Shown here one piece after another: positions 5,404-47,739 of a stretch of DNA of 64,000 nt. The number at the start of each line of letters is the position of its first letter. Positions within the stretch are counted from its first letter, which is position 1. The notes below the pieces were generated by a model. It was not told the DNA's origin and did no database searches. It saw only the letters and a program-made list of their open reading frames with translations. The position numbers were made by a program, and so were the translations under genes. The stretch lies in the NCBI RefSeq assembly GCF_000219535.2, contig NZ_CP007806.1, forward strand, positions 1,300,501 through 1,364,500, read 5' to 3'. The DNA is from Brevibacillus laterosporus LMG 15441 (lineage in GTDB: Bacteria > Bacillota > Bacilli > Brevibacillales > Brevibacillaceae).

Positions 5404-5435
5404 ATGCTGTATATGATTATATATGCAATGCTATG

Positions 5436-5720
5436 ATTGGAAAGAGTACATATACCCACCTTATCAGAGAGGGAGAATCATTAGCTGCGAGATTCTCTAA
5501 GGAGTAGGGATATGGAAAGTCATCCATGAGCAATTCCAATGAAATGAGAAGTAATAAAGTAGTTGGAATCGGCGTCAAACCGTTATCTTGTTAGAGTGAA
5601 CGCGTGAGTTCCGTACTTTCACATAGTGGGAAATGTATTTGAATGATGATAACGCGCGTTAACAAAGGTGGTACCGCGAAACAAACTCCTTTTCGTCCTT
5701 TGATGATGAGGAGTTTTTTT
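5436..5720 (+). promoter_or_regulatory. T-box riboswitch (valine) controlling valS
   Basis: Stem I is closed by ATTGGAA (5436-5442) with TTCCAAT (5534-5540). An upper helix CATAT/ATATG leaves an internal loop with AGAGTA on the 5' side and GTC at 5519-5521 on the 3' side. GUC is a valine codon followed by a purine, as expected for a specifier. The conserved T-box AAAGGTGGTACCGCG is at 5664-5678. Its bulge TGGT (5669-5672) ends in U, which pairs with an A discriminator base. The terminator pairs AAACTCCT (5683-5690) with AGGAGTTT (5709-5716) before a T run. Uncharged tRNA-Val would favour the antiterminator and so valS expression. The 475 bases between yitT and valS are explained by this element and its promoter. 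Confidence 0.93.
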
Positions 5721-23427: not shown

Positions 23428-23480
23428 CAAGGTAAGTTAACCATTTTACTTACCTAGTGATTTGATGGATTGGATGATAT

Positions 23481-23541
23481 GCCGTGCTTTTCAGAGATAG
23501 CGTCACCATGTGATCAAGTCTCTGTTGGGCACGGCTTTTTT
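23481..23541 (+). terminator. Strong two-part hairpin with U tract upstream of csp
   Basis: The outer stem GCCGTGC/GCACGGC and inner stem CAGAGA/TCTCTG are followed by TTTTTTCC. It can end rodA transcription, and also ends a putative short RNA from the promoter at 23399. Confidence 0.8.
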
Positions 23542-23620
23542 CCTTGAAACAAGCTTTAAGTGATGGTTAACAGATATTTTAATCGTCTGAAAAGGCGAAC
23601 ATTTCTAGGAGGTTTTTTCC

Positions 23621-23821
23621 ATGCAACAAGGTACTGTAAAATGGTTTAACGCAGAAAAAGGTTTTGGCTTCATTCAAGTTGAAGGCGGAGAAGATGTATT
23701 CGTACACTACAGCGCTATCCAAACTGAAGGTTTCAAAACTCTTGAAGAAGGTCAAAAAGTTGAGTTTGAAATCGTTCAAGGTAGCCGTGGACCACAAGCT
23801 GCTAACGTTAATCGTCTGTAA
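23621..23821 (+). CDS. Cold-shock protein (CspA/CspB family)
   Basis: This 66-residue single OB-fold RNA chaperone has RNP1 (KGFGFI) and RNP2 (VFVHY) intact. The start ATG 23621 follows TAGGAGGTTTTTTCC, an optimal Shine-Dalgarno. Codons are strongly biased towards those of highly expressed genes. Family members bind single-stranded nucleic acid and act as transcription antiterminators and translation aids. It is monocistronic between hairpins at 23481 and 23843. Which csp paralogue it is cannot be told from the sequence. Confidence 0.96.
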
Positions 23822-23842
23822 GATCAAATACGTATAAAAAGA

Positions 23843-23874
23843 AGCAGTCTCTCTTTTGAGGGGCTGTTTTTTTT
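23843..23874 (+). terminator. Terminator of csp
   Basis: CAGTCTCTC pairs with GAGGGGCTG (with G-U pairs) around TTTT, followed by eight T residues. Confidence 0.88.
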
Positions 23875-27267: not shown

Positions 27268-27384
27268 GTTATGCAGCTATGCTTGTACCTTGAGCATACT
27301 GTAACCGCGCGAATCAGGTTTTAGTAAGATGGTTTGTAAAGCCACACCTGCATAAGGCGAGTCTGAGTATAGGAGGTGCAATAG
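27268..27384 (+). promoter_or_regulatory. L21-type ribosomal protein leader
   Basis: A structured 5' UTR of about 117 bases separates the promoter from rplU. It contains several short inverted segments (for example GCTATGCTTGTACCTTGAGCATA) and ends in the TAGGAGGTGCAAT ribosome-binding site. Firmicute rplU operons carry an autoregulatory L21 leader here. I infer this one from position and structure, not from a model match. Confidence 0.6.
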
Positions 27385-41857: not shown

Positions 41858-44353
41858 TTATTTAATTGTTACTCCGAATGTTTCCTCCAAAAGACCAACC
41901 GGTAGGAATAGACGGTTTTTCACAATGTCGGAATTTGTTTCTAAGGTTTTACCATTAGCGATTACTTCAGAAGCCCCAAGGACATAAACAAGTTTTGCAT
42001 CTCCTTTAGTCAAAGTAACGCTTCTTGTTTTATTGTCGTAGGCTACTTGAATACCTAAGCCCTCAGCCGTTGTACGAACAGCAACTAGTTTATTCAAGTC
42101 TTTCTTAGGTTCCTCTTTTTTCACGTCTTCTTTAGAAGCGTCGTCTTTCTTAGGTTCCTCTTTTTTCACGTCTTCTTTAGAAGCGTCGTCTTTCTTAGGT
42201 TCCTCTTTTTTCACGTCTTCTTTAGAAGCGTCGTCTTTCTTAGGTTCCTCTTTTTTCACGTCTTCTTTAGAAGCGTCGTCTTTCTTAGGTTCTTCTTTTT
42301 TCACGTCTTCTTTAGAAGCGTCGTCTTTCTTAGGTTCTTCTTTTTTCACGTCTTCTTTAGAAGCGTCAGCAGATTCAGCTACTTTTTGAGTTGTAGTAGA
42401 AAGGTCAATGCTATATTTAGCAAAACCGTTTTCTCCCTCACCAATATACTTGATGTATCCGAGCTTTTCAGCAACCTCTTTTGCTTTAGGAGAAGAGGTT
42501 AGTGTTACTTTCATGTCACCTTTGATTGGTGCAAAACCCCAGTTTCCATCAGCGGTTGGATTGAAGGATTTTTGCTCTTTAATGTAGTTAATTAACACTT
42601 CGCGGTTTTCGTCTGGAGAATCGATGATGACATTAGAACCATCAATACCAGGGAAGTTACCGCCACCGAAAGCACGATAGTTATTTGTTACCACGATGAA
42701 TTTTTGCTTAGGATCGACAGGTTTACCGTTATATTGCAGGTTAATTACACGATTTGCTTTTTCATTAACCAAAGTACCCTTGATATCATAACGAGAAGGC
42801 TGAGTCAGATCGAATTGATACTCTACACCATCCAATGTATCAAAGTTATAAGTTGGGAAGGCATCATTAACTAATGCTTGCTCTTCTTTTTTGGTTGGAT
42901 CGATTTGGTTAAACTGTCCAGCGGAACGCTCTAACCATTCTTTTACTTGGCTACCGTCGATTAATACAGCTTTAATTGTATTTGGGTAGATATATAGATC
43001 TGAAACGTTTTTAACAGCAATTGTTCCAGCCTTAATGTCTGTATAGTATTCAGCACCGTTACGTCCACCTGCTTTAAATGGTGCGGCTGCAGACAAGATT
43101 GGAGTACCTTCATATTCTGTTCCTTGTGTTGCTTTTTCTGCCCACCATCTTTGTGCGTTTGAAACGATTTGAACAGATGGATCGTCATTAACTAATGCAA
43201 AGAAACTGTTGATTGGGGCTTTTGTTTCGCCAACTGGTCCACGAACATAGCCTAAAGTGTTTTCATGGTCTTCTTTTACAGCATTAAGAATATCCTTATC
43301 AGCTTCTACAAGAGCTTTTTTGGTAGCAGCATCATAAACTGGACGAGCTTCCGTTGTGGAATCAACCACTTGCCATTTTCCATCTACTTGTTTAAGAGTT
43401 AGGTCGATAACACCTAGATGATCGCCCCAGAAGCCTGGCATAACAGATGGAATACCATTGATCGTACCTTTTGCTGTGTCAACGCCTTCAATTCCATCAA
43501 AATCTTTGCTTGGGAATAGCTTGTGCGCATGACCAAACAGGATAGCATCAATGCCTTCTACTTTACTTAGATAGTAAACGGCATTTTCGTCATTTCCTTT
43601 TGCTGGAGCTTTTTCAAATCCAGAATGAGGAATTGCTACGATGATGTCTGCCCCTTCTTTTTTCATTTGAGGAACGAATTTATTCGCCGTTTCAATGATA
43701 TCCTTAGAGATTACTTTCCCTTCTAAGTGACCTTTGTCCCAAGCAGTTACTTGTGGAGGAGCAAATCCGATTGCACCGATTTTAATTGTTACTTCTTTTC
43801 CGGTTTCATCTTTTACTTTCTTTTCAAAGATGTGGTAAGGTGTGAAGTAGTTTTTATCGTTGTCAGGATTGTTATCCTTGTCGTCGATATAGATGTTAGC
43901 GTTTACGTATGGAAATTTTGCACCTTTAAGAGAAGCTTGAAGATAATCAAGGCCAAAGTTGAATTCATGGTTACCGATGTTGCCTACTTCATAGTCAAGT
44001 AGATTCATCGCTTTGTAAATTGGATGAACATCTCCATCTTTCAATCCTTTTTCATGAATGAAATCACCAAGCGGATTTCCTTGAATCAAGTCACCATTGT
44101 CAAACAAAACGCTGTTTGTAACCTCTGCACGTGCTTTCTTGATCAAGGTAGCTGTTTTAGCTAGACCAAATTGGTCAGTCGGAGCATCCTTATAGTAGTC
44201 ATAGTTCACTACGTTTGTATGGATATCAGTTGTTTCCATTAAACGTAATTTAATAATGCTTTCTCCCTCTGCACCTACATGAGCTGTAGGAAGAGCAAAC
44301 ATACTTAGCACCATGGAGGTAGCTAGCACACTGTGTAGATGTGTCTTCTTCAA
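41858..44353 (-). CDS. Secreted 2',3'-cyclic-nucleotide phosphodiesterase/3'-nucleotidase with stalk domain
   Basis: This 831-residue protein has a signal peptide (MKKTHLHSVLATSMVLSMFA, cleavage near HVGA). A calcineurin-like metallophosphatase domain shows METTDIHTNV, NIGNHEFNFGLDY and FGHAHKLF, followed by a 5'-nucleotidase C-terminal domain (VVTNNYRAFGGGNFPG). Then come six 15-residue Lys/Glu/Asp repeats and a copper-amine-oxidase-N-like stalk domain (about 75 residues; RLFLPVGLLEETFGV). It releases phosphate and nucleosides from extracellular nucleotides, like CpdB/YfkN. It starts with TTG 44353 behind AAGGGGGC on the - strand. Confidence 0.9.
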   Translation of the reverse strand: MKKTHLHSVLATSMVLSMFALPTAHVGAEGESIIKLRLMETTDIHTNVVNYDYYKDAPTDQFGLAKTATLIKKARAEVTNSVLFDNGDLIQGNPLGDFIHEKGLKDGDVHPIYKAMNLLDYEVGNIGNHEFNFGLDYLQASLKGAKFPYVNANIYIDDKDNNPDNDKNYFTPYHIFEKKVKDETGKEVTIKIGAIGFAPPQVTAWDKGHLEGKVISKDIIETANKFVPQMKKEGADIIVAIPHSGFEKAPAKGNDENAVYYLSKVEGIDAILFGHAHKLFPSKDFDGIEGVDTAKGTINGIPSVMPGFWGDHLGVIDLTLKQVDGKWQVVDSTTEARPVYDAATKKALVEADKDILNAVKEDHENTLGYVRGPVGETKAPINSFFALVNDDPSVQIVSNAQRWWAEKATQGTEYEGTPILSAAAPFKAGGRNGAEYYTDIKAGTIAVKNVSDLYIYPNTIKAVLIDGSQVKEWLERSAGQFNQIDPTKKEEQALVNDAFPTYNFDTLDGVEYQFDLTQPSRYDIKGTLVNEKANRVINLQYNGKPVDPKQKFIVVTNNYRAFGGGNFPGIDGSNVIIDSPDENREVLINYIKEQKSFNPTADGNWGFAPIKGDMKVTLTSSPKAKEVAEKLGYIKYIGEGENGFAKYSIDLSTTTQKVAESADASKEDVKKEEPKKDDASKEDVKKEEPKKDDASKEDVKKEEPKKDDASKEDVKKEEPKKDDASKEDVKKEEPKKDDASKEDVKKEEPKKDLNKLVAVRTTAEGLGIQVAYDNKTRSVTLTKGDAKLVYVLGASEVIANGKTLETNSDIVKNRLFLPVGLLEETFGVTIK
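42100..42368 (-). repeat. 45-bp tandem coding repeat, six units
   Basis: Each unit encodes SKEDVKKEEPKKDDA (the last is truncated before the stalk domain). Units are almost identical at DNA level, varying only at a GGTTCC/GGTTCT position, so the array expanded recently. It links the enzyme to the C-terminal stalk domain. Confidence 0.92.
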
Positions 44354-45491: not shown

Positions 45492-45512
45492 GTACCTATT
45501 CAATTTCAAATG

Positions 45513-45584
45513 ACTCGTATAATTCTTGGGGATATGGCCCATAAGTTTCTACCAGATGACCGATCATCTTATCTGACTACGAGT
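45513..45584 (+). promoter_or_regulatory. Purine (guanine-class) riboswitch aptamer
   Basis: P1 is ACTCGTA (45513-45519) with TACGAGT (45578-45584). The core reads TATAATTCTTGGGGATATGG, then ATAAGTTTCTACC, then GATGACCGATCATCTTATC, matching the conserved purine aptamer. The specificity base in the J3/1 segment is C at 45577, as in guanine-binding members (U would mean adenine). It lies upstream of xpt-pbuX, the classical target. Confidence 0.96.
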
Positions 45585-45589
45585 GAAAG

Positions 45590-45700
45590 TGCATCTAGGG
45601 TTCCGCTTTTGTCATCCGTTTGTTGACAAGAGGGCTGGTCCAAGCGATGCAAGCTTTGTTATATACAAAGTACACCTAAGGGATAAAAACCCAGAAGGAC
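45590..45700 (+). promoter_or_regulatory. ykkC-family aptamer in tandem, probably PRPP-sensing
   Basis: P1 pairs TGCAT (45590-45594) with ATGCA (45647-45651). Conserved ykkC-class elements follow in order: CTAGGGTTCCGC (45595-45606), a variable hairpin, CTGGTCC (45635-45641), a short hairpin around 45654-45670, then ACACCTAAGGGATAAAAACC and CAGAAGGA. ykkC subtypes sense guanidine, ppGpp or PRPP. PRPP aptamers are known to occur in tandem with guanine aptamers, and Xpt uses PRPP, so PRPP is the best guess. I cannot verify the subtype by eye. Confidence 0.82.
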
Positions 45701-45752
45701 AGGTTTCACTTGAACATTGTTATTCAAGTGCCTTGTCCTTTTGGGTTTTTTT
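45687..45752 (+). terminator. Riboswitch-controlled terminator of xpt-pbuX
   Basis: A long hairpin pairs AACCCAGAAGGACA and CACTTGAA with TTCAAGTG and TGTCCTTTTGGGTT, ending in TTTTTTT. Its 5' arm overlaps the 3' end of the second aptamer, so the folded aptamer and terminator exclude each other. Confidence 0.92.
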
Positions 45753-45803
45753 GTTTTTTTAAAATACTTTGTTGCAAATGTGGAAAGGGGCTTTTGGCTA
45801 CTC

Positions 45804-46400
45804 ATGAAGGTATTACAGGAAAGAATTTGTCAGGACGGAAACGTATTGTCCGATACGGTTTTAAAGGTAGATGCTTTTTTAAATCATCAGGTGGACTCCA
45901 AGCTAGCCATGCTGATCGGGGAAGAATTTGCGAAGCGATTTGCTAAAGAAAACATTACGAAGGTTTTAACAATCGAGGCGAGTGGAATTCAATTTGCAAT
46001 GGCAACAGGCTTTGCGCTACAAGTCCCTTTTGTTTATGCAAAAAAGAAAAAAGCAATTACGCAATCGGATGATGTATATACGGCATCTGTGCATTCTTTC
46101 ACACGTAAAGAAACATACCAGATTAGTGTGGCTAAAGCCTATTTAAAGCCGGGTGAGCGCGTACTAATCGTAGATGATTTCCTAGCTACTGGAGCTGCAT
46201 TAGTAGGATTGTGCGACATTGTGAAAGAAGCTGGTGCCGAATTGGTTGGCGTAGGTGCTGTTATCGAAAAAAGCTTTCAGGAAGGCCGAGGCTTGCTTGA
46301 GGAAAGAGGGATTGCTATTCATTCGTTAGCTCGAATTAAATCGATGTCCCCAGAAACAGGTATTGAGTTTATCGAGGAAATCGGTGCCTGCAAATCGTAA
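45804..46400 (+). CDS. xpt: Xanthine phosphoribosyltransferase
   Basis: Salvages xanthine to XMP using PRPP. This 198-residue enzyme has LSDTVLKVDAFLNHQVDSK near the N-terminus, FAKRFAKENITKVLTIEASG, and the PRPP-binding motif VLIVDDFLATGAA. ATG 45804 matches the family N-terminus (MKVLQERICQDG); the longer frame starts inside the terminator hairpin and is rejected. The GAAAGGGG site is about 13 bases upstream, a rather long spacing. The operon with pbuX is under the two-aptamer leader. Confidence 0.95.
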   Translation: MKVLQERICQDGNVLSDTVLKVDAFLNHQVDSKLAMLIGEEFAKRFAKENITKVLTIEASGIQFAMATGFALQVPFVYAKKKKAITQSDDVYTASVHSFTRKETYQISVAKAYLKPGERVLIVDDFLATGAALVGLCDIVKEAGAELVGVGAVIEKSFQEGRGLLEERGIAIHSLARIKSMSPETGIEFIEEIGACKS

Positions 46401-46425: not shown

Positions 46426-47739
46426 ATGTTAAGCAAGCAAAAGATATTTACCTTGGGCTTTCAACAGGTTCTAGCGATGTATGCAGGGGCTGTTATCGTT
46501 CCGCTTATTATCGGTAAAGAATTGGGATTAACACCACAACAGATGGCATATCTAATCGCGGCGGACCTCTTCACCAGCGGGCTTGCGACCTTGCTTCAAG
46601 TCTATGGCGGAAGGTACATTGGATCGGGACTTCCCGTAATGCTCGGATGTACTTTTACAGCAGTAGGGCCCATCATTGCCGTGTCCCTTTCAGCAGGAAA
46701 CAGCTTAACAACTGCATATGGTGCTATTATCGTATCTGGTATCTTTGTATTTTTATTTGCACCTTTGTTTGGTAAATTACTACGCTTTTTTCCAACAGTG
46801 GTTACAGGCTCAGTCGTTACCATCATTGGTTTATCCTTAATTCCTGTTGCGATGAAGAATGCGGCTGGTGGGGAAGGCAGTGCATCTTTTGGCTCTCCTA
46901 CTAATTTACTTCTAGCTTTTTTAACCTTGCTTTTAATCCTGTTGTTTAATCGTTTTTTTACTGGATTTATTCGATCGGTTGCTGTATTGATTGGACTTGT
47001 GACGGGTACCATGATCGCCTTTTTCTTAGGCATGGTTGACTTCTCACATGTATGGACTGCCTCCTGGATCAGCATTGTACAACCATTCTATTTCGGTACG
47101 CCGCGCTTTGATATAATGGCAATTCTAACGATGATAATCGTCAATATAATCAGTATGGTGGAATCTACCGGTGTTTATTTTGCTGTTGGAAAAGTAACGG
47201 ACACCAAGATTGATTCCAAAACAGTAGTAAAAGGCTTACGTGCAGAAGGCCTTGCTATTACAATGGGTGGTGTCTTTAACGCGTTCCCCTATACAGCTTT
47301 CTCACAAAATGTAGGGCTTCTTTCATTGACGGGGATCAAAGGTCGAGAAGCCATTATGGGAGCGGGCGTAATTCTTGTTACATTGGGAATGCTGCCAAAA
47401 TTGGCTGCACTTACAACCGTTATTCCCGATGCTGTACTAGGCGGGGCTATGATTGCTATGTTTGGGATGGTAGTTGCATCAGGTATTAATATTTTATCGA
47501 GTGTCGATTTATCCAAAAATGAAAATCTTTTAATTGCAGCTTGCAGTATTGCAGTAGGCTTGGGCTCCGCAGTGGTTCCACAAATGTTTGATCAGCTACC
47601 AGGTATGGCGAAGATGATTATGCAAAATGGGATCGTTACAGGCTCGTTAACCGCGATTGTATTAAATATTTGTTTGGCTCGAAAAGATAAGGCGGTTAAA
47701 AACGCTTCTCAGACGGCCTCAGAAACGGTCTCTGTATAA
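46426..47739 (+). CDS. pbuX: Xanthine permease
   Basis: This 437-residue transporter of the nucleobase:cation symporter-2 family has about 12-14 membrane helices. Family signatures include VLAMYAGAVIVPLIIG, SGLPVMLGCTFTAVGPII, NIISMVESTGVYFAVGK and NAFPYTAFSQNVGLLSLTG. It imports xanthine for Xpt. Start ATG 46426, with AAAGGGAGAGGTAG in front, 25 bases after xpt. Confidence 0.95.
   Translation: MLSKQKIFTLGFQQVLAMYAGAVIVPLIIGKELGLTPQQMAYLIAADLFTSGLATLLQVYGGRYIGSGLPVMLGCTFTAVGPIIAVSLSAGNSLTTAYGAIIVSGIFVFLFAPLFGKLLRFFPTVVTGSVVTIIGLSLIPVAMKNAAGGEGSASFGSPTNLLLAFLTLLLILLFNRFFTGFIRSVAVLIGLVTGTMIAFFLGMVDFSHVWTASWISIVQPFYFGTPRFDIMAILTMIIVNIISMVESTGVYFAVGKVTDTKIDSKTVVKGLRAEGLAITMGGVFNAFPYTAFSQNVGLLSLTGIKGREAIMGAGVILVTLGMLPKLAALTTVIPDAVLGGAMIAMFGMVVASGINILSSVDLSKNENLLIAACSIAVGLGSAVVPQMFDQLPGMAKMIMQNGIVTGSLTAIVLNICLARKDKAVKNASQTASETVSV

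Follow-up and report, generated by a model that had tools for sequence, protein, structure and literature searches.

Xanthine phosphoribosyltransferase, the product of xpt, consumes PRPP, and the pathway served by xpt-pbuX leads to XMP and then to GMP. In the 64,000-nucleotide stretch of the Brevibacillus laterosporus LMG 15441 genome analysed here (the window), this operon is preceded by two adjacent aptamers that share one terminator, which raises the question of which signals the leader reads and how it combines them. The leader is very probably a guanine-OFF/PRPP-ON tandem riboswitch that controls xpt-pbuX through its one terminator, with ligand binding, direction of control and truth table predicted. 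It is well supported as a new example of the known guanine-PRPP IMPLY gate, at a target unnamed in the available published text. To a broader proposal we give slightly better than even chances: the PRPP input to xpt would come by RNA instead of PurR, making a gate for GMP-directed salvage, and in many relatives the IMPLY gate would repeatedly have been lost as the PRPP pocket decayed, leaving a guanine-off switch in which P0 serves as a ligand-free antiterminator and, in some lineages, the hairpins are strengthened.

Two aptamers and one terminator before xpt-pbuX

The locus contains the following features.

45513-45584 (+), guanine aptamer (RF00167); P1 is formed by 45513-45519 with 45578-45584; specificity base C45577
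45580-45588 (+), shared strand CGAGUGAAA; 45580-45584 is the 3' strand of guanine P1 and the whole is the 5' strand of P0
45580-45712 (+), putative PRPP (ykkC subtype 2b) aptamer including P0, from the RF00442 match and the specificity letters C45645, G45694 and C45673
45645 (+), C45645, at the site where guanidine-I has A and subtypes 2a/2b have a pyrimidine
45680-45692 (+), P3 hairpin GGG-AUAAAAA-CCC, from the Rfam alignment and the fold; its 3' strand doubles as the start of the terminator 5' arm
45690-45752 (+), shared intrinsic terminator; stem 45690-45745, apical hairpin 45707-45730, then U's
45694 (+), G45694, equivalent of G96 (PRPP versus ppGpp), paired with C45673 by the Rfam model
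45704-45712 (+), 3' strand of P0, UUUCACUUG, mostly inside the upper terminator hairpin in the OFF state
45804-46400 (+), xpt, xanthine phosphoribosyltransferase (TIGR01744, 248.4 bits, cut-off 164.45; NF006671, 262.1 bits)
46426-47739 (+), pbuX, xanthine permease (TIGR03173, 524.1 bits, cut-off 414.15)

Over 7.7 kb, a B. laterosporus contig (L079) shares 95% identity with the window. The tandem pattern matches once in the 64-kb window and in none of 100 shuffles. The first-pass annotation, made from the letters of this DNA, had described a guanine-class aptamer at 45513-45584, and a covariance-model scan bears this out, RF00167 matching 45495-45599 at 64.4 bits (gathering score 37). The ligand-pairing base of GACTA is C45577, the letter typical of guanine-I riboswitches, which we take to specify guanine. 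A second aptamer had been placed at 45590-45700 by its ykkC landmarks, and RF00442 indeed matches 45584-45699 at 61.9 bits (E 9.8e-11 in a 451-base search). This is 1.1 bits below the gathering score of 63, and the match is therefore absent from the default whole-window scan. RF00442 is the guanidine-I model, and 26 of the 28 intact Brevibacillaceae members described below, that of the window included, also fall short of its 63 bits. No other ykkC match in the genome rises above noise, the next best reaching 19.4 bits.

Guanine P1 ends at 45584 and, in the Rfam alignment, ykkC P1 starts at 45590, leaving 5 nt between them, against a typical 5–7 nt. The adjacent aptamers are followed by a single terminator, as had been claimed (at 45687-45752): a stem at 45690-45745 is succeeded by U's, and the leader (45500-45765) folds at -85 kcal/mol with a z of -5.0, equalled by none of 200 shuffles.

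Other RNA elements of the window are a T-box leader (5424-5703, 122.5 bits), a match to the cspA thermoregulator model (23464-23872, 80 bits, narrowly above the cut-off of 78) and a ribosomal protein L21 leader (27293-27374, 53.4 bits). On the reverse strand, 41858-44353 encodes a 2',3'-cyclic-nucleotide phosphodiesterase-like protein in which near-identical DASKEDVKKEEPKKD repeats run near the C-terminal end. Elsewhere in the genome, a search in which 150 of 524 candidates were scored gave a second purine riboswitch (C1:4380582-4380683, 83.4 bits, guanine-type C), and the gene on its 3' side looks, from its translation, like adenine deaminase.

Predicted logic of the switch

AGTGAAA (45582-45588) pairs with TTTCACT (45704-45710), and the pairing extends to 45580-45588 with 45704-45712, including one G-U. 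The first-pass annotation had taken this duplex for an antiterminator closing around the second aptamer. The pairing stands, with up to nine pairs, but the duplex belongs to the second aptamer: the two ends of the PRPP aptamer form it as helix P0.

Guanine would lock P1 of the first aptamer, so that CGAGU is tied up and P0 remains incomplete; the freed UUUCACUUG would then enter the terminator hairpin and transcription would stop. PRPP would lock P0 and P3, by which the terminator segments would be held and CGAGU drawn out of guanine P1, permitting read-through. The only state expected to be off is the one with high guanine and low PRPP, as the first-pass annotation had predicted.

Folding was computed at growing transcript lengths. 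For an RNA that stops at 45712, the ensemble with P1 has -57.3 kcal/mol and that with P0 -58.0, a gap of less than 1 kcal/mol that either ligand could overcome at this early stage. At 45720, P1 has a probability of 0.60 and P0 of 0.34, the weakest P1 among the sampled lengths. At 45735, P1 is ahead by 4.8 kcal/mol and the upper terminator hairpin holds most of UUUCACUUG, and by 45750 the terminator has a probability of 1.0. In ligand-free equilibrium folding, guanine P1 and the terminator prevail at almost all lengths, and a ligand-free ON state would therefore have to be kinetic.

Targets of guanine-PRPP tandems

A strict RNA-only pattern, applied to one genome per species, gave 116 stretches, of which 68 are tandems of a guanine and a subtype-2 aptamer; the other 48 had no guanine core or no P3 and were excluded, and one tandem (L092) was retained by eye. 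In this set, which is rich in Paenibacillus, the first gene is xpt in 41 cases (two of them, L019 and L053, assigned by reading the sequence 3' of the leader) and pbuX in 8, together 49 of 68. The remainder begin with another NCS2 permease (10), purK/purE (2), purL (2), a phosphorylase-like gene (1), a Bmp-type binding protein (1) or a gene that is unclassified or cut off (3). Because the strict pattern limits one hairpin, it matched only 7 of 39 Brevibacillaceae genomes, against 28 of 38 by reading of the leaders, and the scan is thus a lower bound. Tandems in xpt context occur in Brevibacillus, Paenibacillus, Cohnella, Alicyclobacillus and Tumebacillus; those with pbuX first that carry an organism title are from Gottfriedia and related Bacillus sp. 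In two loci (L177, L113) the tandem stands before a phosphorylase-like gene, and the next gene encodes a Bmp-type substrate-binding protein; the context seems to be one of nucleoside salvage.

An even sample of the phylum (398 Bacillota genomes) gave 29 genomes with a loose tandem pattern, 27 of them with a guanine core (L173 and L196 were dropped). The loose pattern run backwards over the same 398 genomes gave 22 matches, so that it is the guanine-core check, and not the pattern, that carries the tandem call. The first gene of the 27 is an NCS2 permease in 14, purE in 5, xpt in 3 (the window included), phosphorylase-like in 1 and unclassified in 4 (L187-L190, in which it resembles none of nine reference proteins). 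On the 3 of 27, we dropped the notion of xpt as the chief target of these tandems everywhere; xpt is a lineage-specific target and does not characterise the class at large. The earlier suggestion that such tandems are less usual on a salvage operon holds against the available published text and across the phylum, but within Brevibacillaceae this placement is the norm, with an intact tandem of both Rfam aptamers in 28 of 38 xpt leaders.

Route of the PRPP signal to xpt

PurR senses PRPP. Loss of PurR was considered as the reason for a PRPP sensor in RNA and was dropped, since PurR scores above cut-off in all 39 Brevibacillaceae genomes. PurBox-like sites (a consensus pattern with at most 2 substitutions) were sought in unequal windows of 230 bases for xpt and 700 bases for purE. 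They occur upstream of purE in all 30 loci read, out of 39 found, against 7.0 in shuffles; upstream of xpt they occur in 2 of 38 leaders against 4.2 in shuffles, no more than chance. The 30 purE leaders contain a guanine aptamer in 14 cases and a ykkC core in none. The presence of PurBox-like sites at purE but not at xpt suggests that in Brevibacillaceae the PRPP signal reaches xpt via RNA.

The stated purpose of the known tandems is control of de novo purine genes, with steps toward IMP and then ATP supply, according to the available parts of PMC5912903, PMC9481103 and PMC7266159. A gate on xpt-pbuX leads to XMP and GMP and misfits this rationale, which suggests a wider role for the tandem, namely that salvage would be kept on while PRPP is available for joining to the base.

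Leaders without the PRPP core

The xpt gene was found in 38 of 39 Brevibacillaceae genomes, and all 38 leaders contain the guanine aptamer. CTAGGGTTCCG is exact in 28 leaders, which defines the intact group, and has 4–5 mismatches in 10; no leader has 1–3. The independent RF00442 model reproduces this split, with matches of 46–68 bits in the 28 and none at E 0.5 in the 10. The lack of intermediates points to selection where the core is kept. In the 10 core-less leaders the P0 duplex has a mean of -11.3 kcal/mol against -10.3 in the intact ones, and the terminator region folds with the same strength (-42.7 against -43.8). With the PRPP core missing and P0 and the terminator retained, a guanine-only off switch should remain, and core-less leaders of this kind would act as such in several related lineages. 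On an xpt tree with nine outgroup rows, the 10 core-less leaders require 4 changes, at least 3 of them forced.

The addition of 19 Paenibacillaceae leaders (from 59 genomes) and 2 from a class sample of 121 brought the leaders with this Xpt type to 59, of which 34 are intact and 25 lack the core. We consider it unlikely that these 25 never had the PRPP consensus, or bind a new ligand, rather than having decayed, although this is the alternative that survives best. P0 alone resembles the antiterminator of an ordinary guanine riboswitch, and 14 of the 25 leaders differ from the P3 signature at more than 4 positions. On the other side, a P3 relic (at most 4 mismatches, a threshold chosen after the scores were seen) is found in the other 11 of the 25, against none of 24 guanine-only leaders of a distant Xpt type (27 of the listed loci were taken, 24 having a guanine aptamer) and none of 250 shuffles. 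Only in those 11 leaders does the relic speak for loss rather than for a core that was never there. Lost and intact leaders also interleave on the xpt tree of the 59, with 7 undirected state changes, of which at least 5 are forced by well-supported branches.

The interiors speak on both sides. Their identity in lost against intact pairs is 0.54 (19 pairs) against 0.64 (191) at 70–75% xpt identity, 0.58 (17) against 0.74 (26) at 75–80%, 0.67 (6) against 0.67 (12) at 80–85%, 0.70 (1) against 0.67 (2) at 85–90% and 0.75 (1) against 0.92 (12) at 90–95%, and randomised interiors give 0.48–0.58. Lost interiors are thus less alike in three of five bins but not in the other two, so that drift is not uniform. 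The terminator arms at 70–75% xpt identity have an identity of 0.82 in lost and 0.93 in intact pairs.

The single-sequence significance of P0 is modest: it reaches p 0.05 against shuffles in 17 of 24 tested core-less leaders (L242 was left out) and in 21 of 34 intact ones. In L238 P0 is gone too, and in L235 it is no better than chance. In core-less L237, P0 is AGCGA/UCGCU instead of AGUGA/UCACU, a double change that preserves pairing (p 0.08 against shuffles). The neatest pair is core-less L258 and its intact sister L259, L258 having three bare hairpins inside a retained P0. The difference F(P0)-F(P1) at +5/+8/+12 is -0.2/-2.8/-5.0 kcal/mol in lost Brevibacillaceae leaders and +0.4/-1.2/-1.2 in intact ones; this apparent shift toward P0 is only suggestive, because the folding model omits the tertiary contacts of intact aptamers. 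A uniform gain in the stability of the third hairpin in lost Brevibacillaceae leaders was rejected, the means being -11.4 against -8.4 kcal/mol but the gain appearing in only two of four origins.

The repeated absence of one input with the frame retained is the more interesting part of the comparison. Relatives in which nothing but the PRPP core is missing offer natural one-input variants, by which the interaction of the aptamers is directly testable.

Covariation of the shared strand

The first-pass annotation had pointed out that the antiterminator strand is also the 3' arm of guanine P1; the predicted pairs do share 45580-45584, and the sharing can be followed over relatives. A total of 122 tandem leaders with the PRPP core (two collections, some species twice) were reduced to 31 types of shared strand. 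In a permutation test that, for this and all the following figures, keeps shared ancestry in, the own P0 duplex averages -7.98 kcal/mol against -6.61 (sd 0.32) for permuted partners, and none of 10,000 permutations reaches the own value. The five bases inside guanine P1 alone are reached by 16 of 10,000 permutations. In an earlier, smaller run of the test on the duplex the counts were 12 of 5000 for 18 types and 14 of 5000 for 56 pairs. Guanine P1 as positive control gave 1 of 10,000, its 5' strand being crudely cut in some rows, and a control region further downstream carries a weak signal too (315 of 10,000). Double changes are seen in single cases, UGAAG/CUUCA in L066 and CGAGA/UCUCG in L184. 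The mutual exclusion of P0 and P1 thus has comparative support over the 31 sequence types.

That the aptamers oppose each other by steric clash, and not via the common strand, is a possibility left by Sherlock et al. 2018 (PMC5912903) and by the available part of a 2022 review (PMC9481103). We regard it as improbable, as the shared strand covaries with the downstream strand and the core-less leaders mostly retain the P0 complement. Exclusion through the shared strand is preferred.

Ligand of the second aptamer

According to the available text of PMC6031431, a pyrimidine at position 49 separates PRPP aptamers from guanidine aptamers (A), and G at position 96 separates them from ppGpp aptamers (not G). 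The window has C45645 at position 49 and G45694 at position 96, paired with C45673 as the equivalent of C75. These letters make PRPP the expected ligand, in agreement with the subtype called probable at first pass. At position 49 every one of the 68 tandems has C or T, and 41 of the 48 excluded pattern matches have A; position 96 was parsed as A in one of the 68 (L081), whose strand reads G, and this was taken as a parsing slip.

It is still less probable that the second aptamer senses another ykkC ligand, namely guanidine, ppGpp or nucleoside diphosphates (subtype 2c). The fold is common to all, and the Rfam match is to the guanidine-I model, but C45645 stands where guanidine-I has A (its position 46, position 49 in PRPP aptamers) and G45694 where ppGpp (subtype 2a) has no G. 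The downstream genes, xpt and pbuX, are not those of the other subtypes as grouped in the available part of PMC7266159. Least probable of all is that the PRPP aptamer of the window's species is present but inert and xpt controlled by guanine only, which the related lineages without the core would fit but against which the absence of intermediate Brevibacillaceae leaders, in CTAGGGTTCCG and RF00442 alike, argues.

Comparison with known systems

The closest system is the tandem of Sherlock et al. 2018 (PMC5912903; 192 examples according to the available part of PMC9481103), which has the same guanine and PRPP aptamers a few bases apart, the same single shared terminator and the same expected IMPLY logic. 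In the accessible text of PMC5912903, IMPLY behaviour, including the ligand-free ON state, was measured for the Bacillus megaterium codA tandem. The genes there are those of de novo purine synthesis and codA, whereas here they are xpt-pbuX. The word xpt is absent from the main text of PMC5912903, and its supplementary lists may hold xpt examples. A literature search on PRPP riboswitches with xpt or xanthine phosphoribosyltransferase gave no paper on an xpt tandem, and the available part of a 2025 survey of contiguous riboswitches (PMC12452182) mentions neither PRPP nor xpt.

Helix P0 was assigned to the PRPP aptamer by Knappenberger et al. 2018 (PMC6031431, available part). The T. mathranii aptamer described there has the same P0 from the aptamer ends and the same overlap with guanine P1, and its C49 and G96 have equivalents here. 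The mutual exclusion of P0 and guanine P1 was proposed there from the predicted structure of one species, whereas here covariation extends over 31 sequence types.

Paenibacillus XPRTase genes have been described with guanine-I OFF switches (PMC9295807, available part). Paenibacillus sp. DMB5, which that paper mentions for a different RNA, carries a tandem before xpt (L019), which suggests that at least some of these leaders are tandems.

For the glycine riboswitch, decay of a tandem to one ligand-binding aptamer and a scaffold remnant has been proposed in the available part of PMC6944388. The core-less leaders resemble these ghost aptamers in the apparent decay of a tandem to a single aptamer plus remnant, but unlike them they derive from two aptamer classes, and the remnant, in the relatives and not in the window, keeps an antiterminator helix. 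Among the papers inspected, no report of one-aptamer decay in guanine-PRPP tandems was seen.

The xpt-pbuX operon of B. subtilis carries a guanine riboswitch. The operon is the same there as here, and so are the two signals. B. subtilis xpt is among the genes behind PurR-box promoters (PMC8789054, available part), and its PRPP input comes via PurR on DNA, whereas here no PurR-box-like site was found before xpt and a putative PRPP aptamer lies in the RNA.
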